In this document: positions 21,700-40,927 of the stretch, one piece after another
Position numbering within the stretch: position 1 is the stretch's first letter
Layout of the letters: every line of letters starts with the position of its first letter
Assembly: GCA_018897105.1 (NCBI GenBank)
Contig: JAHILF010000024.1
Span: forward strand, 1 to 59,190
Reading direction: 5' to 3'
Origin: Pseudomonadota bacterium
GTDB lineage: Bacteria; Desulfobacterota; Desulfobulbia; Desulfobulbales; SURF-16
DNA length: 59,190 bases
Translations under genes and position numbers: made by a program
Notes under the pieces: model-generated
Database searches by the model: none
The model's input: the letters and a program-made list of their open reading frames with translations, nothing else
What the model was told of the DNA's origin: nothing

Positions 21700-22848
21700 A
21701 TGAAACTTGCGATCTGTCTATTTAATTACTTCCCCTATGGCGGCCTGGAACGAAACTTCCTGAGAATCAGCCGGGAGTGCCTTGCCCGGGGGCATACGGT
21801 GGATGTATTCACCATGCGATGGGAAGGAGAAAAACCGGACGGAATCAGCGTCAGCGAGATTGCGCCGCGGGGCATGAGCAATCACCGGCAGGCCGCGGCC
21901 TATACCGCCGATGTTGCAGAAAAAATTAATGGAAAAAACTTTGACCTGGTGCTGGGCTTTAACCGCATGCCCGGCCTTGATCTCTACTATGCCGCTGATG
22001 TCTGTTATGTTGCCCGGATAGCGCGACAACGCTCTTTTCTGGCCAGACTGACTCCCCGCTACCGCATTTTTGCCGCCTTTGAACGGGCTGTGTTCGCCCC
22101 GGAATCGACCGCCCACATCATCATGCTGTCGGAACAGGAAAAAGATATTTATCAAACAATTTATGGCACACCGGAAAACAGGTTCCATATAGTTCCTCCG
22201 GGCGTCGACAAAGAACGCATCAGGTCCTGCCTCAACGGGCAAAACAGGGAGAAGGTCCGGGCGCAACTGGGGCTTTCCCCACAGGACAACTTCCTGCTCA
22301 TGATCGGCTCCCACTTCCACACCAAGGGCGTCGACCGGTCGATACACGCCCTGGCAGCCCTGCCGCCGGCATTGAAAAATGCAACCTATCTCTTTATCAT
22401 CGGCAAGGGCAAGGAAAACCCCTACCTGAGACTGGCTCAGAAACTCGGGATCACGGACCATGTCCATTTCCTGGGTACCAGGGAGGATGTGCCGTTATTT
22501 CTGGTTGGTGCAGATTTCGTTCTCCAGCCTTCCCGTACGGAAAACACCGGCAATGCCATTGTTGAGGCCCTGGTGGCCGGCGTCCCGGTCATGGCAACGG
22601 ACACCTGCGGTTATGCGGTGCATGTTGAGCGGGCCGGAGCCGGCAGAATCATCCCCTGCTCCCCCTTCAGCCAGGAAAATATGAATGCCATGCTGCGGGA
22701 AATGCTTTCCTCGGGAGAGAGAAAAATCTGGCAGCAACAGGCCCTTGCTTACGCAGATGCCACGGACCTTTACAATCGTTTCAAATTTATCGCTGATTGC
22801 ATTGAAGCCACCGCGGCCCAAAAAAGTAAGAGGGGGCAAGGGGCATGA
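21700..22848 (+). CDS. waaG: WaaG-like LPS core glycosyltransferase (GT4)
   Basis: A 382-residue glycosyltransferase of the WaaG (RfaG) type, which adds the first glucose to the LPS inner-core heptose. The start MKLAICLFNYFPYGGLERNF and the FDLVLGFNRMPGLDLYYAAD region are typical, as is the donor-binding stretch PSRTENTGNAIVEALVAGVPV (the E-x7-E motif). It is soluble and expected at the inner face of the cytoplasmic membrane. No strong ribosome site is visible before ATG 21700. It overlaps the following WaaP-like gene by four bases. Confidence 0.9.
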   Translation: MKLAICLFNYFPYGGLERNFLRISRECLARGHTVDVFTMRWEGEKPDGISVSEIAPRGMSNHRQAAAYTADVAEKINGKNFDLVLGFNRMPGLDLYYAADVCYVARIARQRSFLARLTPRYRIFAAFERAVFAPESTAHIIMLSEQEKDIYQTIYGTPENRFHIVPPGVDKERIRSCLNGQNREKVRAQLGLSPQDNFLLMIGSHFHTKGVDRSIHALAALPPALKNATYLFIIGKGKENPYLRLAQKLGITDHVHFLGTREDVPLFLVGADFVLQPSRTENTGNAIVEALVAGVPVMATDTCGYAVHVERAGAGRIIPCSPFSQENMNAMLREMLSSGERKIWQQQALAYADATDLYNRFKFIADCIEATAAQKSKRGQGA

Positions 22849-23783
22849 CTTTTTCCTGCAACTACGAGGCGCCTGTCTCTGTCCGCCGGTACGGCCAACA
22901 GCGGCAAGAGATACTGCTTATTAACGAGAGGTATCAGCACTTTTTGCAGGGTATCGGCTTCACCAGTTTTGCTGCCGCATGGACCTTTGCCCGCGGGGAG
23001 ATCATTAAAGAGAAAGGGGAAAGAACCGTTATCCGGGCAGAATTTCCCTGTCCGGCAGATCCTGAAGTGGAACATGGTCACGGCCCGGAGGAAAATACTG
23101 TTTTCTACATCAAGAAGCATTGTCAGCGACTCAGCCTGTGGCAGCGACTGCAGTGCCTGCTGCGGCCGCTAGTCTCCTGTGGGGAAGGCTTCAAGGAATT
23201 TCATAATTACTGCCGGTTCCGACAAAACGGACTGGCCACAGCCGTTCCCGTTGCTGCGGGGATAAAGTTTTCCTCATTTTTGCGGGCGGATTCCTTTCTG
23301 ATTACCCAGGACTTCTCCCCGCTCACTGCCCTGGAGGATATTGTGTTGCAGCAACCGGCAACCCTGCTGGGTAGGGAAAATCAGCAGAAAAAAAACAATA
23401 TCCTGCGGGCAGTAGGCCGCTATGCCAGGCGCATGCATGACAGCGGCATGAACCAGAAGGATTTCAACGCCACCCATATCCTGCTGCAGAATCTGGTGAG
23501 CGAACAGCCCCAGGTGGCCCTGTTTGATCTGCAGCGGGTGGACCACAACCCGCTGAACCGGCTCCGCTGGCCGATCAAGGCCCTGGCGGAACTGAACTAT
23601 ACCCTGCCCCCCGTGCTTTTCAGCGAAAGCGACAGGCTCTTGCTGTTTTCCGCCTACAAGGGCAAAAAAAATCTTTCCGCCCTGGACCAGTGGCAGTACC
23701 TGCTGATCAGGCGGAAAACGGCCCGTATCGCCAGACACACCCAAAAAAGAGGGCTGGCCCCAAAAATGACGGACACTGAGTGA
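22845..23783 (+). CDS. waaP: WaaP-like LPS core heptose kinase
   Basis: A 312-residue protein kinase-like enzyme that phosphorylates inner-core heptose in its family. The catalytic loop MHDSGMNQKDFNATHILLQN puts the catalytic Asp at about residue 206; the metal-binding Asp is in VALFDLQRVD. An N-terminal half with AWTFARGEIIKEKGERTVIR matches the nucleotide-binding lobe. It overlaps waaG by four bases. It ends in a single TGA (23781-23783), after which the same frame stays open into the next gene. Confidence 0.9.
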   Translation: MTFSCNYEAPVSVRRYGQQRQEILLINERYQHFLQGIGFTSFAAAWTFARGEIIKEKGERTVIRAEFPCPADPEVEHGHGPEENTVFYIKKHCQRLSLWQRLQCLLRPLVSCGEGFKEFHNYCRFRQNGLATAVPVAAGIKFSSFLRADSFLITQDFSPLTALEDIVLQQPATLLGRENQQKKNNILRAVGRYARRMHDSGMNQKDFNATHILLQNLVSEQPQVALFDLQRVDHNPLNRLRWPIKALAELNYTLPPVLFSESDRLLLFSAYKGKKNLSALDQWQYLLIRRKTARIARHTQKRGLAPKMTDTE

Positions 23784-23813
23784 CATTACTCTGCGAACCA
23801 TTGCACAACAGGA

Positions 23814-26363
23814 TTGCTATTTTTCCAGATTATGGGCATTGCTGAAAAAAAACCGGATACCCTTGCCTCCATCCATGGCAAACAGTTTACGCACTATGAG
23901 CAACAGGTGCGCCTGCTTTTAGCCGGCGTGTTGCCGGCCGGTTGGCAATGGGTCCCCTCTTCCCGGAACACGGTAGTTGCAGTGACCACGGCTGAACCCA
24001 TTGTCTATTACAAGGAATTTCTGCCGCGGGACAGCTTTGAACGGATCAAGGCCATCTTCCGCGGCAATCGCTGCGAGCGAGCCTGCAGACAGGCGGGCGT
24101 ATTAGTGGCAGCAGGTCTGCTCACGCCCGAAATCCTCTGCTGGGGAAATGGTCGAAAAAATGCCTTTCTCATCACCAAAGATTTTGCCGGTATCGGTTTT
24201 TATCAGTATCTCAAAACCCATTTTTCGCCACCTCTCAGCCAGGAGCAGATCAGAGAAAAACGCCTGATGTTGGCCAAAGCCGGCGCACTGATCGGCAGAA
24301 TGCATAGCAAGGGTATCGTGCATGGAGATCTGCGGCAGAACAATCTGCTGGTCACAAAAGAGGGGGGGAATTTCCGCTTCAGCCTTATTGACAATGAAAG
24401 CAACCGGAAATGGCGACGTATTCCCCTGTCACGGGTCATGAAAAACCTGGTCCAATTTGCCATATATCCGGATAATATCCTCAGCGGCCCGGACCTGATA
24501 CGCCTCTTTAAGGCTTACAGTGCCAACTACCCGCGATTTTCCGGTCGAAACAGACAAAAACTCCTGCAGACGGTCTGCCTGCGCAGCAAGGCACGTATCC
24601 TCGAATCAAAGTTTAATTGGCAGTGCAAGAATTTTTGCCGGACCTTTCATTCGGACAGGTTTTCCGGGCAGTGTGTGCTGGACAGTGTTCTGGCCAAACA
24701 GCTTGCCAGCGGGGCAGATTTCGGCCAATGGTTTGAATCGGCTGACATCACCATGAAGCATGATAAAAGTATCACCGTCAAACTCCTGCATGGCCCGGCA
24801 GGCAACATTGTGGTGAAACGTTTTTCCGCCAAAAATCTCCTCTATCACCTCAAAGTCTGGGGAAAAAAGGAACGTATTTTTCAGTTATGGAAAATGACGC
24901 ACTACTTTCAGTTCCTGGGAATTCCGGTTGCGCCCGCCATGGGCTATGTCCTGGAAGGCACGGGAGCGTGGCGCACGGTAAGTTATTTTTGCAGCCACTA
25001 TCTTGAAAACACCTACAATCTTCTCGAGTTATCCAGAAACAGAAAAATTTTCCCAGTTTTGCTTAACGACAAACAGATCATATCTAGCGTTGCCGGGGCA
25101 CTGGCCAGATTGCACAACAACGGTTTCTGCCATGGCGACACCAAATGGGCAAATGTTCTGGTGCATCCAGACACAGGGGAATTCTGGTTTATTGACCTTG
25201 ACGGGGCCTCTCAGGTCACATCAATCCTGGGACACGGCGTATGCAAAGATCTCAGCCGCTTCCTGGTAAATATAATTGAACACCAACTCCCGGAAGGGTA
25301 TGCTGACGAATTTCTTTCTGCCTATTGTCGAACAAGAAGGCTGAACAAAAAACTGGTACAGATGGCCATAAAGCCTTCCATAGAAAAAATTCTGAACCGG
25401 CATAAAAAAAACAAGAAAAAAGAGGATATTACCCGATTGATTGAACAGAAAAAAATATGCTGCGCCTTATGCGGCAGCGATCAATATGACTTGTTGTTTG
25501 AGGGCGTGGATCGTCTGCATGGATTTGCCGGCACATTCAGTTATGTCAAATGCAGAGAGTGCGGTCTTGTTTATATGAATCCCCAGATTTGCCCCGAGCA
25601 CATGGGCAATTTCTATCCCGACAACTATGCCCCGCATCAGGCAAACATCATAGGGATCACGGACAGGGATGCCGCACGGGCCAATTTAAAAAAGAGGCCA
25701 TTTTTTGCACGTCTCGCCGGCAAGTTAACGAAAAATTCACGGGTGCTTGATGTTGGCTGCGGCAATGGTTCTTTCCTGAGCCAGGTCCGGGCGCTGACCC
25801 AATGCCAGGTCGCGGGTATTGATATTTCCCCAATTGCCGCTGAGGCTGCGAAAAAAAATTACGGGCTGGATATATTTACCGGCACCATATTGGAGGCCCC
25901 TTTTCCGGACAATTCTTTTGATGTCATCACGGCATGGTCCTTTCTGGAACATGTGAATAATCCGGTCGAAGTATTAGTTAAGCTGTCAAGTCTGCTGAAA
26001 AAGGATGGCCTGTGTATCCTGACCACCCCCAATTTTGACAGCTTTAATGCCAAGTTGTTTAAAGATAAATGGTATCACCTTGATTGCCCGAGACATCTTT
26101 TTATCTATACTCCGCAGACGGTGAAAGCATTGTTTGAAAAAAGCGGTCTTTATGTGAAACAGATTATCTATGACAAGTCTTCGAAAGGTGTTTTAGGATC
26201 ATTACAGTATCAATTCTATGGGGATAATTATAACCCCAGGCATGGGAATCGCCTGAGGAGATCATCCCTGGTAAAAAAAATCGCCTCCCCGTTTGCCAGA
26301 CTGGCAAAGATCATGAAAAAATCGGATGTCATGGCCATCTGTGCTGCAAAGAGTCCTTCTTAA
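23814..26363 (+). CDS. Fusion of two LPS-kinase-like domains and a zinc-ribbon SAM methyltransferase
   Basis: An 849-residue three-part protein. Kinase-like domain 1 (about 20-265) has the loop IVHGDLRQNNLLV with His170 and metal Asp in SLIDNESNRKW. Kinase-like domain 2 (about 285-535) has GFCHGDTKWANVLV (His440) and WFIDLDGAS. A C-terminal class I methyltransferase follows a CxxC-CxxC ribbon (about 549-586) and has VLDVGCGNGSF at about 643-653 and SFLEHVNNP. Neighbours point to LPS core or glycolipid modification. The start is unclear: TTG 23814 or ATG 23832, neither with a clear ribosome site. It lies in the same frame as waaP, separated by one TGA. Confidence 0.85.
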   Translation: MLFFQIMGIAEKKPDTLASIHGKQFTHYEQQVRLLLAGVLPAGWQWVPSSRNTVVAVTTAEPIVYYKEFLPRDSFERIKAIFRGNRCERACRQAGVLVAAGLLTPEILCWGNGRKNAFLITKDFAGIGFYQYLKTHFSPPLSQEQIREKRLMLAKAGALIGRMHSKGIVHGDLRQNNLLVTKEGGNFRFSLIDNESNRKWRRIPLSRVMKNLVQFAIYPDNILSGPDLIRLFKAYSANYPRFSGRNRQKLLQTVCLRSKARILESKFNWQCKNFCRTFHSDRFSGQCVLDSVLAKQLASGADFGQWFESADITMKHDKSITVKLLHGPAGNIVVKRFSAKNLLYHLKVWGKKERIFQLWKMTHYFQFLGIPVAPAMGYVLEGTGAWRTVSYFCSHYLENTYNLLELSRNRKIFPVLLNDKQIISSVAGALARLHNNGFCHGDTKWANVLVHPDTGEFWFIDLDGASQVTSILGHGVCKDLSRFLVNIIEHQLPEGYADEFLSAYCRTRRLNKKLVQMAIKPSIEKILNRHKKNKKKEDITRLIEQKKICCALCGSDQYDLLFEGVDRLHGFAGTFSYVKCRECGLVYMNPQICPEHMGNFYPDNYAPHQANIIGITDRDAARANLKKRPFFARLAGKLTKNSRVLDVGCGNGSFLSQVRALTQCQVAGIDISPIAAEAAKKNYGLDIFTGTILEAPFPDNSFDVITAWSFLEHVNNPVEVLVKLSSLLKKDGLCILTTPNFDSFNAKLFKDKWYHLDCPRHLFIYTPQTVKALFEKSGLYVKQIIYDKSSKGVLGSLQYQFYGDNYNPRHGNRLRRSSLVKKIASPFARLAKIMKKSDVMAICAAKSPS

Positions 26364-26440: not shown

Positions 26441-27430
26441 TCAGCCTGCCAGCCCATTTTCAAGTGAAGCAATCATCTTTCGGAAAGTGCTCTGCAAGGA
26501 AAAATTGTCAAAACAGCGTTTTCTGCCGGCCTTCCCCATGGAATTTCTGAGAGCATCGTCAGCAACCAGTCGCTCAATAGCCGTCAGCCACTCCTGCTCT
26601 CCTGCAACAAGAAAACCGTTGACACCATGTTCCACGATCTCCTTATTCACCCCTGTGGGAGAAGAAATGACTGGCAGGCCAGCCGCCATATACTGGATAA
26701 CCTTCAAGGCACATTTCCCTCTGGTGAAAAGATTATCCGGCAAAGGCGCTATACCTATGTGGGCTGCTGCCAACTCCTGTGCTTCTCTTTTTTCCGACCA
26801 CCTGATCGGGACAATAGTGAGTTTGTCCGACTGTAAAGTAAAATCAGCTATAATTTTCAAACGTAAGGCAGGGATGACGCCAGCCGCTGATTCAAGTGCA
26901 GGTAACACGCTTTTCAGATGTTCTTTGGTTGCGCTGCTGCCGATCCAGACCAGATCAAAAAAATTTTGCTCCCTGTCGACACTGAAATTATATTTATCAA
27001 TATCCAGTGAAGTCGGCAGGACAAGTATCTTACGGGCAAACGGTCTGGCCCGGTCTGCCAGGTAGTTGTTGCCGGGCCAGACCTGATCGGCTGATGCTAC
27101 ACTGCGAATAAAACTCCTCTCCCTGCTGTTTGATTGCTGGCCCTGGTCTTTTTGAAAAACGGCATCATCATAGTCAAATACCAGATATTTTGCGGCAAAT
27201 CGTAACAACCTGAAAAAAGGGTAGGAATACGTCCTTCGCAAGATGACGACGACATCGGAATGTGCAGCCTCATATAAAATACTCTTGCGGGTTGCCAAGG
27301 ATCGATTATCTGCTATATGTTTAAAAGACCATCCCCCAGCCTCAAACATTGCAGCATATTGCAATGCCCTATATCTGGTAGATGGGGACTCAGCCCCCTT
27401 TGAAATAAATAAAATCTTACGCCGAGACAT
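26441..27430 (-). CDS. Glycosyltransferase family 4-like protein
   Basis: A 329-residue soluble glycosyltransferase. N-terminal MSRRKILFISKGAESPSTRYR, a mid region LVFDYDDAVFQ, and a GT-B C-terminal half with LVWIGSSATKEHLKSVLPAL and KVIQYMAAGLPVISSPTG, where the acidic donor-binding residue is replaced or displaced. It is the promoter-distal gene of the minus-strand surface-glycan block and is followed by the convergent kinase-methyltransferase gene. Donor and acceptor are unknown. A/T content is noticeably higher here than in the chemosensory region. Confidence 0.85.
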   Translation of the reverse strand: MSRRKILFISKGAESPSTRYRALQYAAMFEAGGWSFKHIADNRSLATRKSILYEAAHSDVVVILRRTYSYPFFRLLRFAAKYLVFDYDDAVFQKDQGQQSNSRERSFIRSVASADQVWPGNNYLADRARPFARKILVLPTSLDIDKYNFSVDREQNFFDLVWIGSSATKEHLKSVLPALESAAGVIPALRLKIIADFTLQSDKLTIVPIRWSEKREAQELAAAHIGIAPLPDNLFTRGKCALKVIQYMAAGLPVISSPTGVNKEIVEHGVNGFLVAGEQEWLTAIERLVADDALRNSMGKAGRKRCFDNFSLQSTFRKMIASLENGLAG

Positions 27431-27713
27431 AATGTATAAAATGCTCCCCTTGGAGGTTTCATCTGATTTTTCCGGCTTGGATTAACATACTGATAATACG
27501 TTATTTTAAAAAAAATAACCCCGCGCTGATTCCGTAATATTTTCATAACGGCACCGAGTAAAACCCAAGTGAAGCGAAATCCGTATTAATGGACTTATTT
27601 CTGCCACATCTGCATAAAATCAACAAATTACGTCAACTCAGCAAGTTGCGCAGCAATTATATTGTTGATCAAACAAAAATCAAGCTAGCCAATCAAGACT
27701 TGGTTAACAGCCA
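27431..27713. other. A/T-rich gap between GT4 and GT11 genes
   Basis: About 280 bases without a convincing gene. It includes runs of A and T near 27505-27515. A 72-codon plus-strand frame from 27589 overlaps the end of the GT11 gene and looks random. Confidence 0.4.
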
Positions 27714-28607
27714 TTACAACTTCACATATCCATCAGGCACGGGGGTATACATTTGGTATTTGCTTGATTTAAACCATTTTCTTGGCGCAACAACGATTTT
27801 CTCATGATACGGGTTCAGCCAGGCGGACCACCAGGAAAAACCACTGTTTGCTATGACGTTATGCTTACATTGGCTCATCAAGCGCATATCCTCATGTCCA
27901 TCGAGAGGCCCGTTACAATCGACGAACGTGCAGGGAAAAGAAATGCGGAGATTGTCCCTGACCCAGTTCAGGTCATCACTGAAAACAAAAAAATGCGGAT
28001 CTTTGACCCGATCTGCTATAAAATGTATGGCCCGCTGGTAGTAATCCAGGCTGCACGTTCCGTGAATGCTGTTGGTTTTTGCATCGTTAGCATAATCGCC
28101 TCGCCTGACATGGAGACTTGCAGACTCACAGGACCTGATCTTCTCAAGGAAAATTCTATTTTCTCCTGTGGCTGGATTCTTGAAGGTAAAGTCTGAGCGA
28201 ATGATCGATTCAATATCAGCGAAATAGTGCCAACTGTTCCAATTACCATCCAAGTAGACATCATCCTGCAGGATAAGAATATCCGGGTCAAAATAAATAT
28301 GTTTTTCCCTTACATAACTTTTGGGGCGTTTAGGCTTATTGTGAAAAAGACGATGAACAAAACTGGAAAGCTTCCCCTGTCGGACCGTGGTCAACTTTGC
28401 AATTTCATCAGGACTGGCAAACGACTCTTCTATGTTGAAAACACTTAAACCGTACTGCCGAAAATCAATCTCGCCTCTTTCGTGATAAATGCTAAACCCT
28501 GCAATATCCAACTTCAATTGTGTACCAAGTACCAGAGACAATCTGCGACCTGCAGCATAGGGAAACATCTGATTGGCCAGGCCGCCATGCAGTCTTACAA
28601 TTACCAT
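27714..28607 (-). CDS. GT11 family alpha-1,2-fucosyltransferase-like protein
   Basis: A 297-residue enzyme of the GT11 family, which normally moves L-fucose from GDP-fucose to a galactose acceptor. The start VIVRLHGGLANQMFPYAAGR, the donor motif ASLHVRRGDYAND, FVFSDDLNWV, and HNVIANSGFSWWSAWLN near the C-terminus are all diagnostic. No GDP-fucose genes (gmd, wcaG) are in the window, so donor supply must be elsewhere or the donor differs. It lies in the minus-strand O-chain block. Confidence 0.92.
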   Translation of the reverse strand: MVIVRLHGGLANQMFPYAAGRRLSLVLGTQLKLDIAGFSIYHERGEIDFRQYGLSVFNIEESFASPDEIAKLTTVRQGKLSSFVHRLFHNKPKRPKSYVREKHIYFDPDILILQDDVYLDGNWNSWHYFADIESIIRSDFTFKNPATGENRIFLEKIRSCESASLHVRRGDYANDAKTNSIHGTCSLDYYQRAIHFIADRVKDPHFFVFSDDLNWVRDNLRISFPCTFVDCNGPLDGHEDMRLMSQCKHNVIANSGFSWWSAWLNPYHEKIVVAPRKWFKSSKYQMYTPVPDGYVKL

Positions 28608-28697
28608 TTTGTCTTTATCCGGATATTTTTCACCCGGCTCTCATTAGGCTTCACCTGTCTCATTTTGACTTGCAATCATGTAATTCCGGAAACATTT

Positions 28698-29804
28698 TTA
28701 TGTGAGAATCTCACATACTGTTTTGACTATCCTTGCATGGTCGGCAGGTGACAGATGTGGTCCAATAGGCAGACTCAACACCTCTGACTGAATTGTCTCA
28801 GTAAGAGGAAAAGCCCCTTGAGTTAATTGCATGGGGCTATAGGCTTTCTGCAGATGCGAGGGAATTGGATAATGAATCATGGTGTGGATACCGGCTTCGT
28901 ATAGCCTATGTTGCAGAAGGTCCCGGTTCTCGGACCTGACCACATAGAGATGCCACACGGGCACGGCCCATTCTGGGATTATGGGTTGGATAAGCGATGT
29001 CTGCCTTAACCCCTCCTGATAAAGAGCAGCGATTTTTCTGCGGCGTTCGTTCCACCCATCAAGCCTGGGAAGCTTCACCCGAAGAAAGGCAGCCTGCAAT
29101 TCATCAAGCCTGGAATTAAACCCGATGATATCATTGTAATATTTTGTTCCTGATCCGTAGTTTCTCAACTTACGCACCAGTTCCGCCAGGTGAGTATCAT
29201 TGGTGAGAACCGCCCCACCGTCGCCAAAAGCGCCGAGGTTTTTACCAGGGTAAAAACTGAAACCAGCCGCATGCCCCAGGCTCCCCGCCTTTCTACCTTT
29301 ATAAAGCGCCCCATGAGCCTGGGCTGCGTCTTCAATTACCTTGAGATGATATTTGGCGGCTAATGCATTAATCGGATCCATGTCAGCGGTCTGGCCGTAA
29401 AGATGAACAGCCATGATCGCTTTGGTCTTTGGCGTGATGGCCCTTTCCAGAAGTGACGGATTGATATTGTATGTATATTCATCGGGTTCAACCGGAACCG
29501 GGGTGGCACCATTGTGGGAAACAGCCAGCCACGATGCAATATAGGTATTGGCCGGCACAATCACCTCATCGTCTTTGCCGATCCCGTAAGCATGGAGAAT
29601 CAGAGAAAGTGCTTCAAGACCATTGCCAACACCTATACAGTGATTGACTCCGCAATAGGCGGCAAATTCTTTTTCAAAGGCCTCAACCTCGGAGCCGAGT
29701 ATATACCAACCGCTCAGCATTACCCTTTTGTAGGCTGCGTCCAACTCGTCTTGAAGTTCCTGGTAAGTACCTTTTAGACCCAGGAAAGGAATTTCTTCTG
29801 TCAA
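28698..29804 (-). CDS. DegT/DnrJ/EryC1 sugar aminotransferase (FdtB/QdtB-like)
   Basis: A 368-residue PLP enzyme. The PLP-lysine lies in [18 protein letters not shown]; the fold-type I Asp is in [17 protein letters not shown]. The start [20 protein letters not shown] and length fit the FdtB/QdtB group, which converts dTDP-3-keto-6-deoxyhexose to the 3-amino sugar using glutamate. The fused isomerase/acetyltransferase next door and rmlAB in the window support that pathway. The apparent start is TTG 29804. Confidence 0.88.
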
Positions 29805-29884
29805 AATGAAAGATCCCGCAAATAAACTTTACCCAAATTCAGGTGACAATTAAGCAACGGCATAACCGTTAAGGGATGTCCGTC

Positions 29885-30838
29885 TTACTCTAGCAGCCCA
29901 TCACTATCGGAAACCATTTCAAGATATTGATTGTAATCCCTGATATAGTCTTCCGCTTCATACTTTTCTGAAGCAAGCACCAGCAATACCGCATCCGGCG
30001 AGTATTTATAGTGTATCCGCCACACAAGTGGCGGGACATGAACGCCGATATTGGCAGAATTAAGAAGAAATTCCCCTCTGTTTTTACCATCATCAACCAC
30101 GAGGGAACATGCCCCTTTCACACAAACGAGAAACTCATGCAGTTTTTTATGTGCATGCTCTCCACGGATCTCTTTGGAAGGGACATCAAAGACCATAAAG
30201 AACCTCTTCGGAATAAAGGGTAAGAACTGGCCATATTCGGCAAAAGTGAGACTACCGCGAAGGTCGGTAATCAATGGCAGCGAATAAATGGTAACTCCCT
30301 TTACCATTGTACCAGGTACCGTCTTCCCTTCCCCTGGAGTAATAACAGCGGATACAGAAGGTTGCATCTTCGATGGAGCGGTATAGGAGGTAATGCGGGC
30401 CGGATTTCCGACTACAATGGCATATGGAGGCACGTTTTTGGTAACCACGGATCCGGCACCAACCATGGCATCTTTGCCGATGGTGACACCTGGGAGAATT
30501 GTGGCGTTTGCGCCTATTGATGCACCTTTGTGGATCAGTGTCCGGGAAAATTTCCATGGATACTGTTTGCTACGCGGAAAAGGATCATTGGTCAGCGTAA
30601 CATTCGGCCCGATAAAGACATCATTTTCTATGGTGATGCCGTCCCATACCTGCACGCCGCATTTGATGGTGACCCTGTCGCCGATCCTGACATCGTTTTC
30701 AATGAACACATGATCACATATATTGCAGTCACGGCCAATGTGGGCACCAGGCAGGACATGGGCAAATGCCCAGATTTTCGTTTCATCGCCGATAAACTGA
30801 GATTCAACAATGGACTGTGGATGTTTGAAATATCCCAT
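29885..30838 (-). CDS. Fused sugar N-acetyltransferase and FdtA/QdtA-type 3,4-ketoisomerase (WxcM-like)
   Basis: A 317-residue bifunctional protein. Residues 1-165 form a left-handed beta-helix acetyltransferase (hexapeptide repeats such as IGRDCNICDHVFIENDVRIG, then IVVGNPARIT). Residues 180-317 are a cupin of the FdtA/QdtA/WxcM type (DLRGSLTFAEYGQ; RFFMVFDV; RGEHAHKKLHEFLVCVKGA). The cupin would isomerise dTDP-4-keto-6-deoxyglucose to the 3-keto sugar, the neighbouring aminotransferase would aminate it, and the acetyltransferase part would acetylate it. Whether the product is Fuc3NAc or Qui3NAc is not readable from sequence. Confidence 0.92.
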   Translation of the reverse strand: MGYFKHPQSIVESQFIGDETKIWAFAHVLPGAHIGRDCNICDHVFIENDVRIGDRVTIKCGVQVWDGITIENDVFIGPNVTLTNDPFPRSKQYPWKFSRTLIHKGASIGANATILPGVTIGKDAMVGAGSVVTKNVPPYAIVVGNPARITSYTAPSKMQPSVSAVITPGEGKTVPGTMVKGVTIYSLPLITDLRGSLTFAEYGQFLPFIPKRFFMVFDVPSKEIRGEHAHKKLHEFLVCVKGACSLVVDDGKNRGEFLLNSANIGVHVPPLVWRIHYKYSPDAVLLVLASEKYEAEDYIRDYNQYLEMVSDSDGLLE

Positions 30839-30895
30839 GTGTGGTGCTGGTTCTCTCTATGATTTCATTGTAAGGGGGAGGCAAAAACTTTTTTT

Positions 30896-31810
30896 TTAAT
30901 CGATAATTCCACGTAAACGCAAGGATAATAAATGCCATAACAATCGGACATCACGCCAGCAATATTTCAAGGCACCTGCAAATATTCTCTTTTCAAGCTC
31001 GGAAGGGTTCCTGGTTTTGCTGAGGTATCGTCCCAGCAGCAGATACTGCCTTGTCAGTTGATGCCGTATCAGTTTTTTGTAAGGAGCAAGCTGGGGAACC
31101 TCCTCAAGATATTTGCGATAGAGTAGAACTTTGTCCGCCCTGGCAATATAACGATTGGTCCGGGATGAGTTCGTCTGATGCTGCCTGAGACAGTAAACAG
31201 GAACATCAATGAATTTGATCGGCCCTGCCAGATAAAGGAGAAGCTGCGGATCAAGATCCTCACAATACTGATACCTCAGGTCAAATCCGCCTATATTTAT
31301 GAGTATTTCAGTCCTGGCCATAAGGGTATGAATAGGCAGGTTTACTCCCCTAATGAACTCCGGAATGGGATCAGCCAGTTCGAAAAGACGACGCCGCTTT
31401 GCGTCCATGACAGGCTGACTAGAAACCTTGTCTTCGGTTAACTGGAGGGCATCACCGAATACGGTTACACATTCAGGATTTTCAAGCAAAGATGAGGCTC
31501 TGCTGGACAAGCTGCCGGGTGGGAGATAATCGTCAGAGGCAAGAAGACAGAAAAATTCACCTTCAGCAATTGCCAAACCCTCGTTAAGTGTTTTTATAAG
31601 GCCTTTATTCGGCCGGGAAATAAAACGAAAACCTCCCTTTTCCAGATATAGATCAGAGAGTATCTGCGGACTCCTATCTGTTGATCCGTCATCAATGACG
31701 ATGAGATCGATGTGGGGCCAATCCTGAGTCAGAACACTCTCTATGGCGTTCAGTACATAGGCCTGATGGTTGTAAGATGGGATGACAACAGAAATCTTAT
31801 AATTCTGCAT
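30896..31810 (-). CDS. GT2 family glycosyltransferase (paralogue 1)
   Basis: A 304-residue GT-A enzyme with ISVVIPSYNHQAYVLNAIES, the Asp-rich LIVIDDGSTDRSPQIL and the DxD-region CLLASDDYLPPG. The tail is basic and aromatic (RDVRLLWHLLSL). It closely resembles the GT2 at 33441-34340 over its whole length, including FRFISRPNKGL and the C-terminal motif, so the two are paralogues flanking a GT39 gene. I start it at ATG 31810; GTG 31819 is possible. Confidence 0.9.
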   Translation of the reverse strand: MQNYKISVVIPSYNHQAYVLNAIESVLTQDWPHIDLIVIDDGSTDRSPQILSDLYLEKGGFRFISRPNKGLIKTLNEGLAIAEGEFFCLLASDDYLPPGSLSSRASSLLENPECVTVFGDALQLTEDKVSSQPVMDAKRRRLFELADPIPEFIRGVNLPIHTLMARTEILINIGGFDLRYQYCEDLDPQLLLYLAGPIKFIDVPVYCLRQHQTNSSRTNRYIARADKVLLYRKYLEEVPQLAPYKKLIRHQLTRQYLLLGRYLSKTRNPSELEKRIFAGALKYCWRDVRLLWHLLSLRLRGIID

Positions 31811-31872
31811 CGTTGACACTAATATTTTTTTGGTTACAGGCTAAAAATTGCAATAAAGGAGTCTCCTCTGCT

Positions 31873-33444
31873 TTATATCTGCCAGAGAGCAACCACCACA
31901 TTTTTTTTATCTTCCGGGTCAGTAAAAATCCTGGATTCAACCGCCCGCAAACCATCCAGGCTTTCCATGAACATCATATCTTCTTTGTTACGTCTGCTCA
32001 GCAGCAGAACAATCATGGTTGATTTTTCTTCAGTTTTTTTGTGTGACCCCAACGAGGTCAAAACCACCCGGTTAGTAGCCGGAGAAATTTGCTCGGCATC
32101 CCTTCTGTCGAGAAACCAGGCAATGGTTCTCATATTGACAATGACCTTCCAGTTCTTCTCTTTGTGCAGAACCTGATTGCGAACCCACAGACATGCATCA
32201 CGCAGGACAGGAATGTGGATATTATAGTCCATAAAAGCTGTCTTATAAGCAAACGGCAGAGTAAGCAGAATGCTGAGCGGCAGAATGACAGCCTGTTTTA
32301 TTTTTGCGGGACCGATAACTCCCTTCGCCACCAGATAACCGCCAACAGCAGGCAGGCCGGCCCCGGCAAAAAACAACCAGAGGATAGCCGGAAAAAGCAT
32401 GATGCGTCCTTCCATGGCCCCGGAATAGTAATAATTAGCCAGAATCACCAAGATATTAGCGAGAAAAACCGAGGATAGCAGAATTCCGTTTCCTGGATCC
32501 CGAATAACCGACTTTACCCCGAAAAACCCTAGCACAAGGAGCGGCAAGCTCAGGTTATTTTCAAACATGCGCAGCATACCGATCCCATAAATCCATTGCC
32601 AGTTGCGCTCTATGACCTGCCAAAAATTGTTGCCAAAACCAAACGGCACATTAGTGTGCGCAAGCTCATCGAGCTTGGTGAGATAAAAGGTTACTGCCTG
32701 CGGTGTTGTCCGCAGATCCTGCAGTATGGAAAGCGCTTCATCCAGTCTGATCAGATTACGGCCTGTGGGGGAGAGACTGAAAAGAAATAAAAGGAGACAG
32801 AAGACTCCTGCCATGACTGCTACAGCCCACCCCCAGAAAAAATTAGTAAAACGGCGGACAAAGGATATGGAACCCCAGACAGAAATCACCAACGACAGAG
32901 CAATACCTTCCACCCTGAGCAGGGGTAAGCAGAGAGTGGTCAACAGAGCAACCGGTAACCATTTCAGTCCCCCTCCTTCGGCGAAACGAAGGGCGGTATA
33001 AATGGCAAAAAGTGCCATACAGAGATAGAGAGGATCTCTTATGGCGGCAAAGGCTATGGAATTATATTCCGGCAGCAGCACAAAGACCATGGTGATGATA
33101 ATGGCAGGCCATCCCGGAGAAAATCTCTTGGCAAGACTGAAAAAAGGAAACAGAGCAAGACAGGAGGCAGCAACGGAAATGGTACGACCGGCGGCAAGCC
33201 AGTCAAGACCCAACTTGTGAACACACATCACGAGAAAGGGATAAAACAGCATAGGATATGCCGTAATTGCCTCAGCTATATTCCCCCGTTCCAATGATTG
33301 CGCGGACCATAAATATACCGGGGCGTCAGGATGGATCATGATACCCCGAAACAATGGCAGAGTTTTAACAAGCAGATTTGTTAAAAAAAGCAAGATAAAC
33401 CAGCCCGGCCAATCCGCGGATATTTTATCCTGGTAACGCTTCAT
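31873..33444 (-). CDS. GT39/ArnT-like polytopic membrane glycosyltransferase
   Basis: A 523-residue integral membrane protein with about ten hydrophobic helices. The first extracytoplasmic loop has FRGIMIHPDAPVYLWSAQSL, where an acidic residue follows the pattern of GT39/GT83 enzymes that use polyprenyl-phosphate sugars. A soluble C-terminal domain (about 420-523) follows. It should act at the periplasmic side. ATG 33444 overlaps the stop of the upstream GT2 gene (ATGA), so the genes are coupled. The exact sugar is unknown. Confidence 0.85.
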   Translation of the reverse strand: MKRYQDKISADWPGWFILLFLTNLLVKTLPLFRGIMIHPDAPVYLWSAQSLERGNIAEAITAYPMLFYPFLVMCVHKLGLDWLAAGRTISVAASCLALFPFFSLAKRFSPGWPAIIITMVFVLLPEYNSIAFAAIRDPLYLCMALFAIYTALRFAEGGGLKWLPVALLTTLCLPLLRVEGIALSLVISVWGSISFVRRFTNFFWGWAVAVMAGVFCLLLFLFSLSPTGRNLIRLDEALSILQDLRTTPQAVTFYLTKLDELAHTNVPFGFGNNFWQVIERNWQWIYGIGMLRMFENNLSLPLLVLGFFGVKSVIRDPGNGILLSSVFLANILVILANYYYSGAMEGRIMLFPAILWLFFAGAGLPAVGGYLVAKGVIGPAKIKQAVILPLSILLTLPFAYKTAFMDYNIHIPVLRDACLWVRNQVLHKEKNWKVIVNMRTIAWFLDRRDAEQISPATNRVVLTSLGSHKKTEEKSTMIVLLLSRRNKEDMMFMESLDGLRAVESRIFTDPEDKKNVVVALWQI

Positions 33445-34340
33445 GTCAATTTTGCTTTTCCCCATCTGATCAGGTGCCAAAGCAGCCGGACATCCTGCAA
33501 AGCATAGCCCCAGGCATTCTGAAAAATTCTGCGCTCATAGGCATTACCGCCGCCATTTAAGCTGAGATGTCTGCCGAGGGCTAGATATGACCTGCGCAAC
33601 TGATAGCGGATAATTGATGCATAGGAAACCAGATCAGGGTTGCGCGATAATTTTTCATAACAGAGAATCTTGTCGGTCCTGATCGTGGATGTTGTTGAAG
33701 AAACGTTGGTAGCATGCTCACGCCTGCAGAGAACAGGCTTATCCATAAAACCCACCTTCCCCTCCAACCACAATAACACCGGCATCTCCAGGTCTTCGTA
33801 GCATTGATACTGCGGGTCAAATCCGCCGACTTTCCGAAGGGTATCCGTCTGGAACATGCCAGTGGCAAAGATTGGTCTAACTCCATGCAACATTAAGGAA
33901 AGAGGATCGGGTTGACTGAAAAGAAAGCGCCGTTTATCATCCAGCACACATCCACATGTTTCCGTATCACCCACCACCCGAAAAGCGTCAGCAAAAATGG
34001 CCACATGATCCTGGTGATCCACAAAAAAACGGGCTCGATTCTCAATGCTGTCAAAGGGCAGAAAATCGTCAGAGGCCAGCTCGCAGAAATACTGCCCTTC
34101 AGCCATTGCAAGCCCCTCGTTTAATGAACTGATCAAGCCCCTGTTCTGCTGCCGATGGATAAAACGGAACCCTCCTCTTTTGGCAAGGATCTCGGCAATG
34201 ATTGATGGGCTGTTATCTGTAGACGCATCATCAACCACAATGAGATCGATCTCAGGCCAGGTCTGATCAAGAACACTGGTGATCGACTGGGCAATATAGT
34301 GTTGGTGATTGTATGAAGGAATAATGATTGAAACGAGCAT
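33441..34340 (-). CDS. GT2 family glycosyltransferase (paralogue 2)
   Basis: A 299-residue GT-A enzyme with VSIIIPSYNHQHYIAQSITS, LIVVDDASTDNSPSII and CELASDDFLPFDS. Compared with the GT2 at 30896-31810 it keeps the same layout and the same C-terminal pattern (YERRIFQNAWGYALQDVRLL), indicating duplication with divergence. It overlaps the GT39 gene by four bases and follows the GT4 gene by about 40 bases. Likely adds a sugar to the lipid-linked glycan at the cytoplasmic face. Confidence 0.9.
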   Translation of the reverse strand: MLVSIIIPSYNHQHYIAQSITSVLDQTWPEIDLIVVDDASTDNSPSIIAEILAKRGGFRFIHRQQNRGLISSLNEGLAMAEGQYFCELASDDFLPFDSIENRARFFVDHQDHVAIFADAFRVVGDTETCGCVLDDKRRFLFSQPDPLSLMLHGVRPIFATGMFQTDTLRKVGGFDPQYQCYEDLEMPVLLWLEGKVGFMDKPVLCRREHATNVSSTTSTIRTDKILCYEKLSRNPDLVSYASIIRYQLRRSYLALGRHLSLNGGGNAYERRIFQNAWGYALQDVRLLWHLIRWGKAKLT

Positions 34341-34379
34341 TGAGTTATAGGGTGTTCAATCTGTAAAGGAATGGGGAAA

Positions 34380-35519
34380 TTAAATCATGAGTTCGCGATA
34401 CAAGGAATCCATCCGGGCAATCATGCTATTGCCGTCAAAAAACTGCGCCTGCTGTTTTATACTTGCAACGGCCTGGTTTCTCTGCAATTCCGACCATGCC
34501 ATAACCTGCCCCATGGCAGATCCCAGTTTCTTGTCATTTTCAGGAGGCACAAGAAAACATTGCCCCTTGTTCGCAAGGGTCGTCAGAATCTCCGGTATAC
34601 CGCCGACCCCGCTTGCCACGACAGGCAATCCTGCGGCCAGCGCTTCCAGCACGGCCAGGGGAAATCCTTCATGTCTGGAGGGCATGACAAAGCCGTCCAA
34701 TGCTGTCAGAAATTTCGGGATATCACCAATATGACCCAATAAGGAGATCTCGTTTGCAATTCCCAGTTCCCGCGCCAGGGCAGTCAACTCATCACGTAGT
34801 TTCCCTTTCCCGGCTATAACCAGATGGCCTCCATGTTTGCCGATTTCACTTCCGGCCCATGCCTTGAGGAGAATATCATGGCCCTTGACAGGGGCCAGTC
34901 TGCCCACCGCCCCCCAGAGCCAACCATGGGTTGGTAACCCGAAGAACGACCGGCTTTCCGTTTTATTGAGGTTGCTTCTGCCGAAAACGGCGAGATCAAT
35001 ACCATTATACACCACTTCAACTCTGCTCACCGGGAACCAGGGGTTTGTCAGCAGTATATCACGTTTGACCGCCTCGGAAACCGCAATTATTTTGTTAATA
35101 CGGGGCCAGAGAATTCTGTTACCAATTTTACGTAAAAGAGATCGGGAACGGTTCAGGCCATGAACAGTTGTGACCAGACGTACTTTGCTATTTTTCCGCG
35201 CAGCCAGGGCGGCATAAAAAACAGACTTATGCCTTTGGGCATGGATAATATCCACTCCCTCTGCTTTGATAATCTGATCCAGCTCCCGCACCACCCGGTA
35301 TTTGAAACTCCTGAGATCACCGTTGCCAAAGGGAAGCCACCTTATATCAAAACCGGCCTTACCAAGGGTTTCCTTGTCTGACGGGGGCCCGACCAGATAA
35401 CAGACAATATGCCTGAATCCGTCCTTCAGCCCATGGACAATCTGATTGAATAAAGGGTAATCACCTTTAAAACTACTCCATACATGGAGAATGGTAATTT
35501 CCCCGCCCGTATCCTTCAT
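34380..35519 (-). CDS. GT4 family glycosyltransferase
   Basis: A 379-residue GT-B enzyme. N-terminal ITILHVWSSFKGDYPLFNQI, mid region IDIIHAQRHKSVFYAALAAR and TTVHGLNRSRSLLRKIG, then the donor domain GAVGRLAPVKGHDILLKAW and MPSRHEGFPLAVLEALAAGL (the E-x7-E motif intact). It is related in style to heptosyl/hexosyl-transferases of LPS and exopolysaccharide. It follows msbA by 23 bases in the same direction. Confidence 0.92.
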   Translation of the reverse strand: MKDTGGEITILHVWSSFKGDYPLFNQIVHGLKDGFRHIVCYLVGPPSDKETLGKAGFDIRWLPFGNGDLRSFKYRVVRELDQIIKAEGVDIIHAQRHKSVFYAALAARKNSKVRLVTTVHGLNRSRSLLRKIGNRILWPRINKIIAVSEAVKRDILLTNPWFPVSRVEVVYNGIDLAVFGRSNLNKTESRSFFGLPTHGWLWGAVGRLAPVKGHDILLKAWAGSEIGKHGGHLVIAGKGKLRDELTALARELGIANEISLLGHIGDIPKFLTALDGFVMPSRHEGFPLAVLEALAAGLPVVASGVGGIPEILTTLANKGQCFLVPPENDKKLGSAMGQVMAWSELQRNQAVASIKQQAQFFDGNSMIARMDSLYRELMI

Positions 35520-35542
35520 TTATGGTATCTCAACACAAAAAC

Positions 35543-37294
35543 TCAGCAAGACTCTGTCTTTTTCTCACTGTAAGAAAGGTAGAGTTCTTTGTAGGTTTGG
35601 GATTTCTCCAGCAACTCCTCATGGCGGCCCTGGGAGATAATCCGGCCATGCTCCATGACGAGAATCCTATCAGCATTGCGAATGGTGGAAAGTCGATGAG
35701 CCACGACAATTGTTGTCCTATCATGCATCAATCTTTCCAATGCTTTCTGCACGAGGGCTTCTGAAACCGCATCAAGGGCCGACGTCGCCTCATCCAATAT
35801 GAGGATAGGGGGATTTTTCAAGATGGCCCTGGCAATGGCAATTCTCTGCCGTTGCCCGCCTGAGAGATTGAGACCTCTTTCACCAAGCATGGTATTGTAG
35901 CCGTCAGGAAATTCCGAGATAAAATCGTGTGCAAATGCCAGGCGTGCCGCCTTTTCAACCTCACTGTCCTGAGCATCGGGAGAGCCAAAGGCTATATTTT
36001 CCCTGATCGTATCATTAAAAAGCACGATATCCTGACTGACCAGGCCAATCAATTTTCGTAAATCCTGCAGCCTGACACTTGACAAATCATGCCCGTCAAT
36101 CAGAATGCCACCCTCGGAAGGATCATAATAACGGGGCAGCAAATCAATAAACGAGGTCTTGCCGGCCCCGCTCGGTCCGACAATCGCCACCACATCGCCC
36201 TTCCGGATAGTCAGGTTGATATCCTGCAAAACAAGTTCTCCATTCTCTCTATATCTATGTGAAACATTATCATAACGGATCTCCTGTCGAAAGGACGGCA
36301 ACGGGATATCGCCGCTTTTTTCCGCTTCCATTGTTTCAAGCCACCAGATGCGATCGGTGGCAGCCATAATCTCATGGAAAACCGCATATGATCTCCCGAC
36401 CTGCTTGACGGGATTAAAGATCATCACCACGGCGCCAAGGGAGGAAAAAAGATCTCCGCTGGTAATAATCCCTCTCGCCACAAGGTTTCCCCCGTACCAG
36501 ATAACGATGGCCACGCCGATGCCGGTGGAGATATCAACAATCAACTTGGCTATCTCCTTATAGCGGATAATTTTGGTTTCCTGGCTGTAATTGGAATGGC
36601 TTGTTTTTCTAAAATGTGCCGCCTGGCCATCCTCATTGACAAAAATTTTGATCACCTTGGCGCCAATGGAGGCTTCACTGATGAAATGGGTCAATGTGGC
36701 AGCGCTCTGCTGGGCCAGATTACGCCTTGCCTTCACCTTGCGGGCAACCATGTTGGCAGCGCCGACAATCAACGGCAGCCCTACAAGGGCGAGCAGGGTA
36801 ATATCCCACCGCCGGTAAAAGGCCACCGCCAGTAAGACAATAATGGTAGGAACTTCCTTGAAAACGGTCAGCAGGGTGTCACTCACCAGTCCCTGGGCCA
36901 AGGATGTGTCGGTCAGGATACGGGAGATCATCTTCCCGGATGATTCCTTACCTAGGGACAATACCGGCAGGTGAAGCAGATGCTCGTACAGACGGACGCG
37001 CAAATCCCTCACCAACTTGAGTCCTGAGGAGCGCATCAGATAGCTGTAGATCATTTCACAGGTACCCCGCAGGGCATACAGCAGCATGATCACAAATGGC
37101 AGCCAGACCAACATCGAAAATTTCTTTTCAACAAAAATTGAATCAATGACTGGTTTCACCAACCAGGCAATTGTGCCACTTGCTCCGGAAGATACCAAGC
37201 TGAATAAAAGTGCACCAAGCACCCGGCCGTAATACGGCCGGACAAGTCCGATAATTTTCTGGTCAAATAAATTTGATAGGGATATCTTAGCCAT
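35543..37294 (-). CDS. msbA: MsbA-type lipid A/lipid-linked glycan ABC exporter
   Basis: A 583-residue half-transporter with an N-terminal six-helix membrane domain (about 1-320) and a C-terminal ATPase: Walker A VGPSGAGKTS, signature LSGGQRQRIAIARAI, Walker B ILILDEATSALD and the H-loop VAHRLST. Length and order match MsbA, which flips lipid A-core across the inner membrane. It is the first gene of the minus-strand glycan block, divergent from rmlB. It might instead flip a lipid-linked oligosaccharide made by the downstream transferases. Confidence 0.9.
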   Translation of the reverse strand: MAKISLSNLFDQKIIGLVRPYYGRVLGALLFSLVSSGASGTIAWLVKPVIDSIFVEKKFSMLVWLPFVIMLLYALRGTCEMIYSYLMRSSGLKLVRDLRVRLYEHLLHLPVLSLGKESSGKMISRILTDTSLAQGLVSDTLLTVFKEVPTIIVLLAVAFYRRWDITLLALVGLPLIVGAANMVARKVKARRNLAQQSAATLTHFISEASIGAKVIKIFVNEDGQAAHFRKTSHSNYSQETKIIRYKEIAKLIVDISTGIGVAIVIWYGGNLVARGIITSGDLFSSLGAVVMIFNPVKQVGRSYAVFHEIMAATDRIWWLETMEAEKSGDIPLPSFRQEIRYDNVSHRYRENGELVLQDINLTIRKGDVVAIVGPSGAGKTSFIDLLPRYYDPSEGGILIDGHDLSSVRLQDLRKLIGLVSQDIVLFNDTIRENIAFGSPDAQDSEVEKAARLAFAHDFISEFPDGYNTMLGERGLNLSGGQRQRIAIARAILKNPPILILDEATSALDAVSEALVQKALERLMHDRTTIVVAHRLSTIRNADRILVMEHGRIISQGRHEELLEKSQTYKELYLSYSEKKTESC

Positions 37295-37479
37295 TCACAC
37301 AATAAAAAGATAAAGATAAAGGAGTTATTCTACCCGGTTATACGTTTAAATTGATGCAAGCCGAAGAAGAGCAAATTAAATATCTTACTCTTCATAGACG
37401 ATTTAAGCAACATATTGTATACTTGAGATTTTGTTGTAACACCTCCCTGACAATACTTAACTTATTGATGACTACATTA

Positions 37480-38562
37480 ATGGATAACACAACCACAACA
37501 GACAATATCCTGGTGACGGGCGGCGCCGGTTTCATCGGAGCCAACTTTATCCACTTCATGCTGAAAAACCGGCCTGATTTGCAGGTAATTAATCTCGATG
37601 CCCTGACCTATGCCGGCAATCTTACCAGTCTCGCCGTTCTGCCGATTGAGCACCGCAACCGTCATATCTTTGTGCACGGCGATATCCGCAATGCAGATCT
37701 GCTTGCCGGACTCTTCAGCAAATACTCATTTAAAGGCGTTATTCATTTTGCGGCAGAATCACATGTCGACCGTTCAATTCATGGACCGCAGGTCTTTGTT
37801 GATACCAATGTCGGCGGTACCTGCACCCTTTTGCAGGCAAGTCTGGATTCCTGGGAGAGACGTGGTAGACCTGGGGATTTTCGTTTCCATCATGTTTCCA
37901 CCGATGAGGTATACGGCAGCCTGGGACCGGTTGGCGCTTTCACAGAGAAGAGCCCCTATGACCCCTCAAGCCCGTATTCAGCCTCCAAGGCTGCCTCTGA
38001 TCATTTTGTCCGAGCTTACGGGAAAACATATGGCCTGCCTTTTGTCATCACCAACTGTTCCAATAATTTCGGACCTTTTCAGTTTCCCGAGAAACTTATT
38101 CCGCTTATAATATGCAATATTCTGGCAGAAAAACCGCTGCCGATATATGGTGACGGCAGCAATGTGCGGGACTGGCTTTATGTTCTTGACCACTGCTCCG
38201 CTCTCCTCCGCGTCTTTGAGGAGGGAACAGCAGGACAAACTTACAATATCGGCGGCGGCGCAGAACGGTCAAATCTTGACATCGTGAGACAACTATGTAG
38301 AATCATGGATGAAAAGATGGGAAAATCCACCGGCGCTGCCGAATCGCTTATCACCTTTGTCAAAGACCGTCCTGGCCATGACTTCCGCTATGCCATTGAC
38401 GCAACAAAAATAAACAGAGAACTGGACTGGAAGCCGCTATACTCCTTTGAAGAGGCCTTAAACGTAACAGTTGACTGGTATCTGGCCAATATGGAATGGG
38501 TCGACTCCGTCCGCTCCGGCGCCTATCGCCAATGGCTGGAACTTAACTACGAACAGAGATAA
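37480..38562 (+). CDS. rmlB: dTDP-glucose 4,6-dehydratase
   Basis: A 360-residue short-chain dehydrogenase-type enzyme making dTDP-4-keto-6-deoxyglucose. NAD motif [11 protein letters not shown]; active-site THr-Asp-Glu in [27 protein letters not shown] supplies the Tyr-x-x-x-Lys. I chose ATG 37480 because it gives the usual length; ATG 37468 is equally open and neither has a strong ribosome site. It starts the rmlBACD operon and is divergent from msbA with about 185 bases between them. Confidence 0.95.
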
Positions 38563-38564
38563 TA

Positions 38565-39452
38565 ATGAAAGGAATCATACTTGCCGGCGGATCAGGTACC
38601 CGCCTCTATCCCATCACACAGGTAGTCAGCAAACAACTCCTGCCTGTTTATGACAAACCGATGATCTATTACCCTCTTTCGGTCCTCATGCTGGCCGGGA
38701 TCAGGGACATTCTCATTATTTCAACACCCAAGGATCTTCCCCTCTTCCGGGAACTTCTCGGTGACGGCTCACAATGGGGTCTCTCTTTTTCTTATGTTGA
38801 ACAGCCGCGCCCTGAGGGACTGGCCCAGGCATTTATTCTGGGGCGTGACTTTATCGCCAGCGATAACGTCTGCATGATCCTTGGCGACAATCTCTTTTAT
38901 GGCCATGGTTTACCGGAAAAACTTCACAGGGCGGCAGCTCGGACTCCAGGGGCGACAATTTTCGGTTATCAGGTGAGCGATCCCCAGCGATATGGGGTTA
39001 TCACCTTTGGCAAGGAAGGAAGGGTTATGGATATTGAGGAAAAACCTTCTGTACCCAAATCAAATTACGCGGTCACCGGCCTCTATTTCTATGACAATCG
39101 TGTACCGGATATCGCGGCGCAGATCAAACCATCCCCACGGGGCGAACTGGAAATCACCGACGTCAACCGCGCCTATCTGGAAATGGGGGAGCTGCATGTG
39201 GAAAAACTGGGCCGAGGCATCGCCTGGCTTGATACCGGCACCCACGATTCCCTGCTGCAGTCTTCACGGTTTATTGAGGTCATTGAAAAAAGACAGGGTC
39301 TCAAGGTGGCCTGTATCGAGGAAATCGCTTATCTCTTGAAATACATCGATAATGCGCAACTTGAAAAACTGGCGCTCCCCCTGATGAAAAACAATTATGG
39401 TCAGTACCTGATGAAACTCCTGAAGGAGGAAATTCTTTATGAACGTGATTGA
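38565..39452 (+). CDS. rmlA: Glucose-1-phosphate thymidylyltransferase
   Basis: A 295-residue enzyme that joins dTTP and glucose-1-phosphate. Signature [20 protein letters not shown] at the N-terminus, the catalytic region [17 protein letters not shown], and [17 protein letters not shown]. Length is normal. It follows rmlB by two bases and overlaps rmlC by 14 bases. Confidence 0.97.
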
Positions 39453-39996
39453 AACGCAACTCTCCGGAGTGTTGATACTTGAACCTCGCGTGTTTGATGA
39501 TAATCGCGGTTTTTTCATGGAAACCTTTCACAAGGAGAAATATGAACAAATTGGCATAAAGGTTGAATTTGTTCAGGACAATTTCTCTTTTTCCCAGAAA
39601 AACACCCTGCGCGGTCTCCACTTTCAGCACCCCCATGGCCAGGCAAAACTGGTCCAGGTTTTTCAGGGAGCGGTGTTTGATGTGGCGGTTGATATCAGGC
39701 TCGGCTCGCCAACCTTCGGCAAATGGGTAGGCGTCGAACTTTCCGCCGCAAACAAAAGACAGATCTTCATCCCGGCGGGGTTTGCCCACGGCTTTGTCGT
39801 GTTGAGCGATACCGCCTCTTTTGTCTATAAATGCAGTGATTTTTATTCCCCAGACTGTGAGAGAGGCATTATCTTTTCCGATCCCCAACTTGCCATCCGC
39901 TGGCCGGGCGGCAACTTCCTGCTCTCGCCTAAGGATCAGCAATACCCCGCTCTGCAGGATATTTCCCCCGGAGATCTACCCTCCTATACCGGATGA
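39439..39996 (+). CDS. rmlC: dTDP-4-dehydrorhamnose 3,5-epimerase
   Basis: A 185-residue cupin-fold epimerase. It carries [20 protein letters not shown] with the catalytic His in LRGLHFQ, the [16 protein letters not shown] strand pair, and [14 protein letters not shown]. It overlaps rmlA by 14 bases and ends four bases before rmlD. Its presence shows that L-rhamnose is made as well as the 3-acetamido sugar predicted from the fdt-like genes. Confidence 0.97.
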
Positions 39997-40000
39997 GCCC

Positions 40001-40879: not shown

Positions 40880-40927
40880 TTCTGCCAGGGGCTACATGCA
40901 TATACTATTTTTTTTAAGAGGTAACCA

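Follow-up and report, generated by a model that had tools for sequence, protein, structure and literature searches.

Gene content of the locus

The window is the whole stretch of DNA analysed here, 59,190 nucleotides in length, and the features discussed below are listed in Table 1. Translation showed that positions 22845-26363 can be read in one frame whose sole internal stop is the TGA at 23781-23783, as an earlier note on this DNA had pointed out. The GT4 glycosyltransferase gene and the waaP-like gene that opens this frame overlap by ATGA and lie in the same operon, and the order glycosyltransferase-kinase is also present in three related genomes (G002, G004 and G010). The ORF downstream of the TGA, which ends at 26363, encodes 843 aa, with kinase domains at residues 1 to about 530 and a methyltransferase at residues from about 536 to 843. 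Two candidate starts were found for this ORF, TTG 23814 (open) and ATG 23832; the latter is more probably the start, judging from the conserved MGIAEKK(PD) or MSLKEKK(PD) in relatives. No Rfam elements or tRNAs were found in the window.

Table 1. Positions of the genes and sites discussed, in window coordinates (G002 is the closest relative)
Feature	Position	Strand	Evidence or remark
GT4 glycosyltransferase	21700..22848	+	Pfam Glycos_transf_1, 102 bits; positional counterpart of waaG/wapG
WaaP-like LPS core kinase, 312 aa, separate gene	22845..23783	+	Pfam Kdo/WaaP, 70.8 bits
Stop codon of the waaP-like gene	23781..23783	+	TGA in the window, other stops in relatives
Tandem LPS kinase	23832..25426	+	Pfam Kdo/WaaP, two stretches
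Fusion junction	25400..25436	+	60 additional bases here in G002
AGAGGA Shine-Dalgarno-like site	25421..25426	+	10 nt 5' of TTG 25437
Class I SAM methyltransferase, N-terminal Cys4 ribbon	25437..26363	+	Methyltransf_23, 104 bits
Glycosyltransferase	26441..27430	-	Homologue directly 3' of the methyltransferase homologue in Phycisphaerales locus L017

The separate WaaP-like kinase aligned with the P. aeruginosa WaaP structure 6dfl at an E value of 9e-9, and in this alignment both the HRD-type Asp (QKD) and the DLH-type Asp (DLQ) are kept. Its gene is a conserved neighbour of the tandem kinase in G002, G004, G010, G001 and G256, and has a G+C content of 55.1%, compared with 45.7% for the methyltransferase. 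In the downstream ORF, two stretches of Pfam Kdo/WaaP followed by a Cys4 ribbon and Methyltransf_23 bore out the earlier reading of two LPS-kinase-like domains and a ribbon-containing methyltransferase, in that order.

The kinase pair is a family form found without the methyltransferase

The Pfam family Kdo/WaaP (PF06293) has a cut-off of 21.3 bits, and three matches in the window's own genome score above it. The tandem kinase reached 74.8 bits over its two stretches. Domain A (residues 1 to about 270) carries K61, HGDLRQNN at 164-171 and D187, while domain B (residues about 272-525) carries K329, HGDTKWAN at 434-441 and D455. The Lys, the HGD loop and the Asp are thus found in both domains, and the catalytic residues are conserved in an alignment (A3) of nine relatives; scores above the cut-off, an HxD-type catalytic Asp and a DLH/DFG-type metal-binding Asp together place these kinases in PF06293. 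The AlphaFold model of the kinase pair, in which domain A is also of good confidence, has a mean pLDDT of 85.5. Its domain B has a WaaP-like kinase fold and matched WaaP 6dfl with a Z score of 18.7 (3.9 Å over 231 residues). Matches of domain B to PRPK/Bud32 reached a Z score of 20.0, and a search against a viral structure library returned generic kinases only.

We found the tandem kinase in 11 of the 22 genomes of the window's own family, as a single polypeptide in 10 of them, and relatives share from 89% down to 38% identity with the window protein. Most copies in the family are about 530-540 aa long; those of G010 and the window are extended, that of G001 is split into two ORFs, and G256, a genome of another family, has an extended copy as well. 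Across a sample of the phylum, 58 of 395 genomes matched the tandem kinase at 1e-15. Two kinase domains share one ORF in 14 of 24 loci (window left out), which is not readable as a frequency because these loci are the best-scoring ones, and several of them adjoin a separate WaaP-like gene. In every other family genome that has the tandem kinase, the protein lacks the methyltransferase; these comparisons indicate that a kinase pair alone is the norm for the family, and that fused kinase pairs are widespread in the phylum. The fusion is therefore the usual architecture as far as the kinase pair is concerned (10 of 22 family genomes) and an unusual one for the methyltransferase, which is a separate gene in G002. 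As for whether relatives hold the parts as separate genes, the methyltransferase is one in G002 and the WaaP-like kinase in several relatives, whereas the kinase pair is mostly one polypeptide. With dN/dS ratios of about 0.19 (kinases) and 0.20 (methyltransferase), both parts are under purifying selection.

Several departures from the common form were seen among relatives. In G001 (L029:10163-11601) the tandem kinase is broken, with a TGA between the domains and a domain B that lacks the N-lobe and lies in another frame. In G007 and G015, which belong to one sister genus (L026:8670-10280 and L027:1663-3273), domain B lacks the DFG-type Asp (IGLD and INLD), and in G015 the His of HGD is lost as well; domain B of these genomes may therefore be a pseudokinase. 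The tandem kinases of G256 (L040:1501-3837) and G010 (L038:1480-3858), which come from different families, carry a C-terminal extension of about 250 aa with GDSH and DHHYD motifs, which looks SGNH-hydrolase-like by eye and has no Pfam match; in both, a convergent alpha/beta-hydrolase-like gene follows.

A 60-bp difference joins the methyltransferase to the kinase gene

The closest relative of the window is G002, whose contig is also in GTDB as the metagenome-assembled genome isolate MM_PC_MetaG.mb.92; protein identity between the two is 89% for the tandem kinase and 95% for the methyltransferase. The tandem-kinase gene of G002 terminates in TGATGA, and a separate ORF of 308 aa, opened by TTG, encodes the methyltransferase. 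Alignment of the two junctions (A1) revealed a single difference, exactly 60 bases that are absent from the window. This segment sits between A-rich tracts, its flanks match on both sides, and it holds the TGATGA. It forms a hairpin with a folding energy of -15 kcal/mol and a z score of -4.55. The fusion frame in the window is intact and the linker has no stops. A mobile repeat was considered for the 60-bp segment and rejected, as only one copy exists in G002 and none in the window's own genome.

The G002 hairpin (L002:3085-3155) lies between the kinase and methyltransferase genes, and a T-run follows it on the minus strand. Because of this T-run, the hairpin might terminate antisense transcription that enters from the sugar cluster. 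A consensus scan found no intrinsic terminator at the hairpin, the loop of which is longer than the scan permits.

In our alignment, the tandem kinases of outgroups end at the equivalent residue. Since the outgroup kinases end there and the Planctomycetes homologues of the methyltransferase are standalone, separate kinase and methyltransferase genes are the ancestral state. TTG 25437 is the probable original start of the methyltransferase, with AGAGGA retained 10 bases upstream. Moreover, no relative of the methyltransferase was found in nine other tandem-kinase neighbourhoods (besides those of the window and G002), no LPS kinase was found in three methyltransferase neighbourhoods outside the family, and the kinase-kinase-methyltransferase fusion was found in no examined genome other than the window's, so that the domain order is as unusual as had been supposed. 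A missed frameshift had been named as a possible source of the apparent fusion; we found no frameshift, and a small 60-bp deletion explains the join of the methyltransferase.

We therefore favour, with good confidence, an explanation in which an ordinary LPS-core kinase gene and an unrelated methyltransferase gene were joined by the loss of the 60-bp hairpin, which would make the fusion a recent and local join and not a new kind of enzyme. Loss of the hairpin between the A-rich tracts would have removed the stop codons of the kinase gene, and the fused frame could be translated as one protein, while the methyltransferase retains its own ribosome-binding site and TTG start.

The comparison behind this loss is one of two metagenome-assembled genomes, and the fusion could also be absent in the organism itself, if the hairpin had been lost during sequencing or assembly and the true genome kept the two genes apart, like G002. 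A strong hairpin between A-rich tracts, such as the segment absent here, is prone to slippage, and the stops are present in the sole close relative. However, the frames on either side are clean, the 60-bp loss leaves the reading frame exactly preserved, about 40 bases after the junction match G002 perfectly, and a true deletion of such a hairpin would be just as easy. We consider an assembly slip of this kind possible, though improbable. Either way, because the sister genome keeps the stops within the 60-base stretch, the three-part fusion would be a local accident or an assembly slip. If the deletion occurred in the living strain, the locus offers a small, clean case of functionally unlinked neighbours fused through the loss of an intergenic hairpin; it also cautions that a fusion in one metagenome-assembled genome is poor ground for inferring coordinated function.

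The methyltransferase resembles sugar methyltransferases of surface-glycan clusters

The methyltransferase scored well above the Methyltransf_23 cut-off of 27 bits, and the SAM-binding motif I (LDVGCGNG) assigns it to class I. The Cys4 ribbon (CALC...CREC) lies N-terminal to the methyltransferase core. Homologues in polysaccharide clusters of Planctomycetota (L018) and Phycisphaerales (L017) are 62% and 52% identical, respectively, over the whole length, but both are standalone with no kinase nearby, whereas the methyltransferase of the window is fused to kinases. The glycosyltransferase homologue that follows in L017 (Table 1) is thus shared with the window as a neighbour.

Structural comparison (VIA-align 2) of the methyltransferase model with MtmC (4rvd) gave a Z score of 21.1 at 2.8 Å over 239 residues, and TcaB9 and KijD1 matched with Z scores of about 20. 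These three sugar C-methyltransferases share with the window protein an N-terminal ribbon and a class I methyltransferase core; the match (Z 20-21, 226-239 residues) covers residues 541-843, in a part of the model that is low-confidence in places. In contrast to them, the window protein has no C-terminal third domain: the alignment stops at residue ~268 of their ~405-419, and identity is 16-20%. A Foldseek search with the full-length model was filled by methyltransferases; WbdD was absent among the matches listed, which speaks neither for nor against a likeness.

In the window, positions 26441-41000 hold a surface-sugar cluster with an FdtA/FdtC-type fusion (29885-30838), an aminotransferase, a GT11, several glycosyltransferases and MsbA; no Wzy_C/WaaL-type (PF04932) match was found anywhere in the genome. 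Its dTDP-sugar genes are of the FdtA and DegT types, together with RmlA/B/C/D-like ORFs, the last recognised by reading the annotated genes. Since the neighbouring cluster encodes dTDP-sugar genes, a sugar substrate for the methyltransferase is plausible; judging from its family, a sugar or nucleotide sugar is most likely. The low G+C content of the methyltransferase is consistent with DNA of variable sugar clusters. We suggest that it is an independent surface-glycan gene that came in with the adjoining variable sugar cluster.

The locus differs from the WbdD system

WbdD was considered because a kinase and a methyltransferase are paired there. WbdD (structure 4AZS), which terminates O-antigen chains in E. 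coli O9a, comprises a methyltransferase, one kinase and a coiled coil, and works with an ABC-exported O-chain (PMC3482155). It has been proposed in the earlier note that the present fusion coordinates phosphorylation and methylation of the LPS core, and methylated phospho-glycans were named there as a known chemistry of O-chain capping. By analogy, a selected bifunctional enzyme would phosphorylate a core or chain-end sugar with its kinases and methylate the phosphate with the fused methyltransferase. Kinases and a SAM methyltransferase do share one polypeptide here, through an intact frame and a stop-free linker, WbdD unites the same two chemistries (PMC3482155), and a protein with a Wzt_C domain is encoded elsewhere in the window's own genome. 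However, the WbdD order of methyltransferase, kinase and C-terminal coiled coil (PMC3482155) is reversed in the window protein, which has two kinases followed by a ribbon methyltransferase and ends there with no further domain. None of the window's annotated genes was recognised as Wzm or Wzt, and the single Wzt_C protein is encoded on another contig. Moreover, the two parts are separate in G002 and do not co-occur in the other genomes compared, and in structure the methyltransferase comes closest to sugar C-methyltransferases. These results give no support to coordinated phosphorylation and methylation or to O-chain capping, and we regard a selected bifunctional enzyme as very unlikely. About as improbable, in our estimate, is a reading in which the fusion exists in the organism, is expressed and is under selection, so that a single protein would place two phosphates on a sugar of the LPS core or chain end and methylate the product; were it true, a chain-capping or charge-masking enzyme with a layout unlike WbdD would have been born from one small deletion.

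Three kinase domains may act on the LPS inner core

The gene end at 23781-23783 was compared among relatives. The waaP-like gene stops with TAG in G002, G004 and G001 and with TAA in G010 and G256. The frame offset from this gene to the kinase start is 0 in the window, G002 and G256, and 1 in G004, G010 and G001. In G256, several stops lie inside the in-frame interval between the two genes. The shared frame across the TGA is thus a 1-in-3 coincidence that is not conserved among the relatives compared, and by this comparison the TGA is an ordinary stop. Programmed readthrough, which would join the waaP product to the downstream protein in a three-kinase polypeptide, has in its favour a frame otherwise open but for the single TGA, yet it is rejected with near certainty, as is recoding, because neither the identity of the stop nor the frame relation is conserved: the stop is TAG or TAA in relatives, further in-frame stops are present in G256, and the frames of the two genes differ in half of the relatives.

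The core cluster of Pseudomonas has the row waaG-waaP-wapP-wapQ-PA5006 (PMC8005017, PMC6147952). Kinases of the same family likewise stand in a row after a waaG-type glycosyltransferase in the window, with the difference that the second and third kinases form one polypeptide there and are separate proteins in Pseudomonas (WaaP, WapP, WapQ). Under our preferred explanation of two unrelated genes joined by hairpin loss, the locus would form the last part of an operon for LPS-core assembly, made up of a glycosyltransferase, the WaaP-like kinase and the tandem-domain kinase. By family and position, the three kinase domains most likely act on inner-core sugars, which is the best-supported function; they would phosphorylate heptose and/or Kdo with ATP, like Pseudomonas WaaP, WapP and WapQ. 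A limited literature search found nothing specific on a described tandem LPS kinase. The two-kinase LPS protein, common in the phylum and apparently undescribed, is the part of this locus that deserves biochemical work.

A further arrangement of such domains was seen in G503, where a 1045-aa ORF (L060:55-3192) combines, by Pfam, a GT4 glycosyltransferase, two LPS kinase domains and a GT9 heptosyltransferase; it is possibly a multi-step core-assembly protein.
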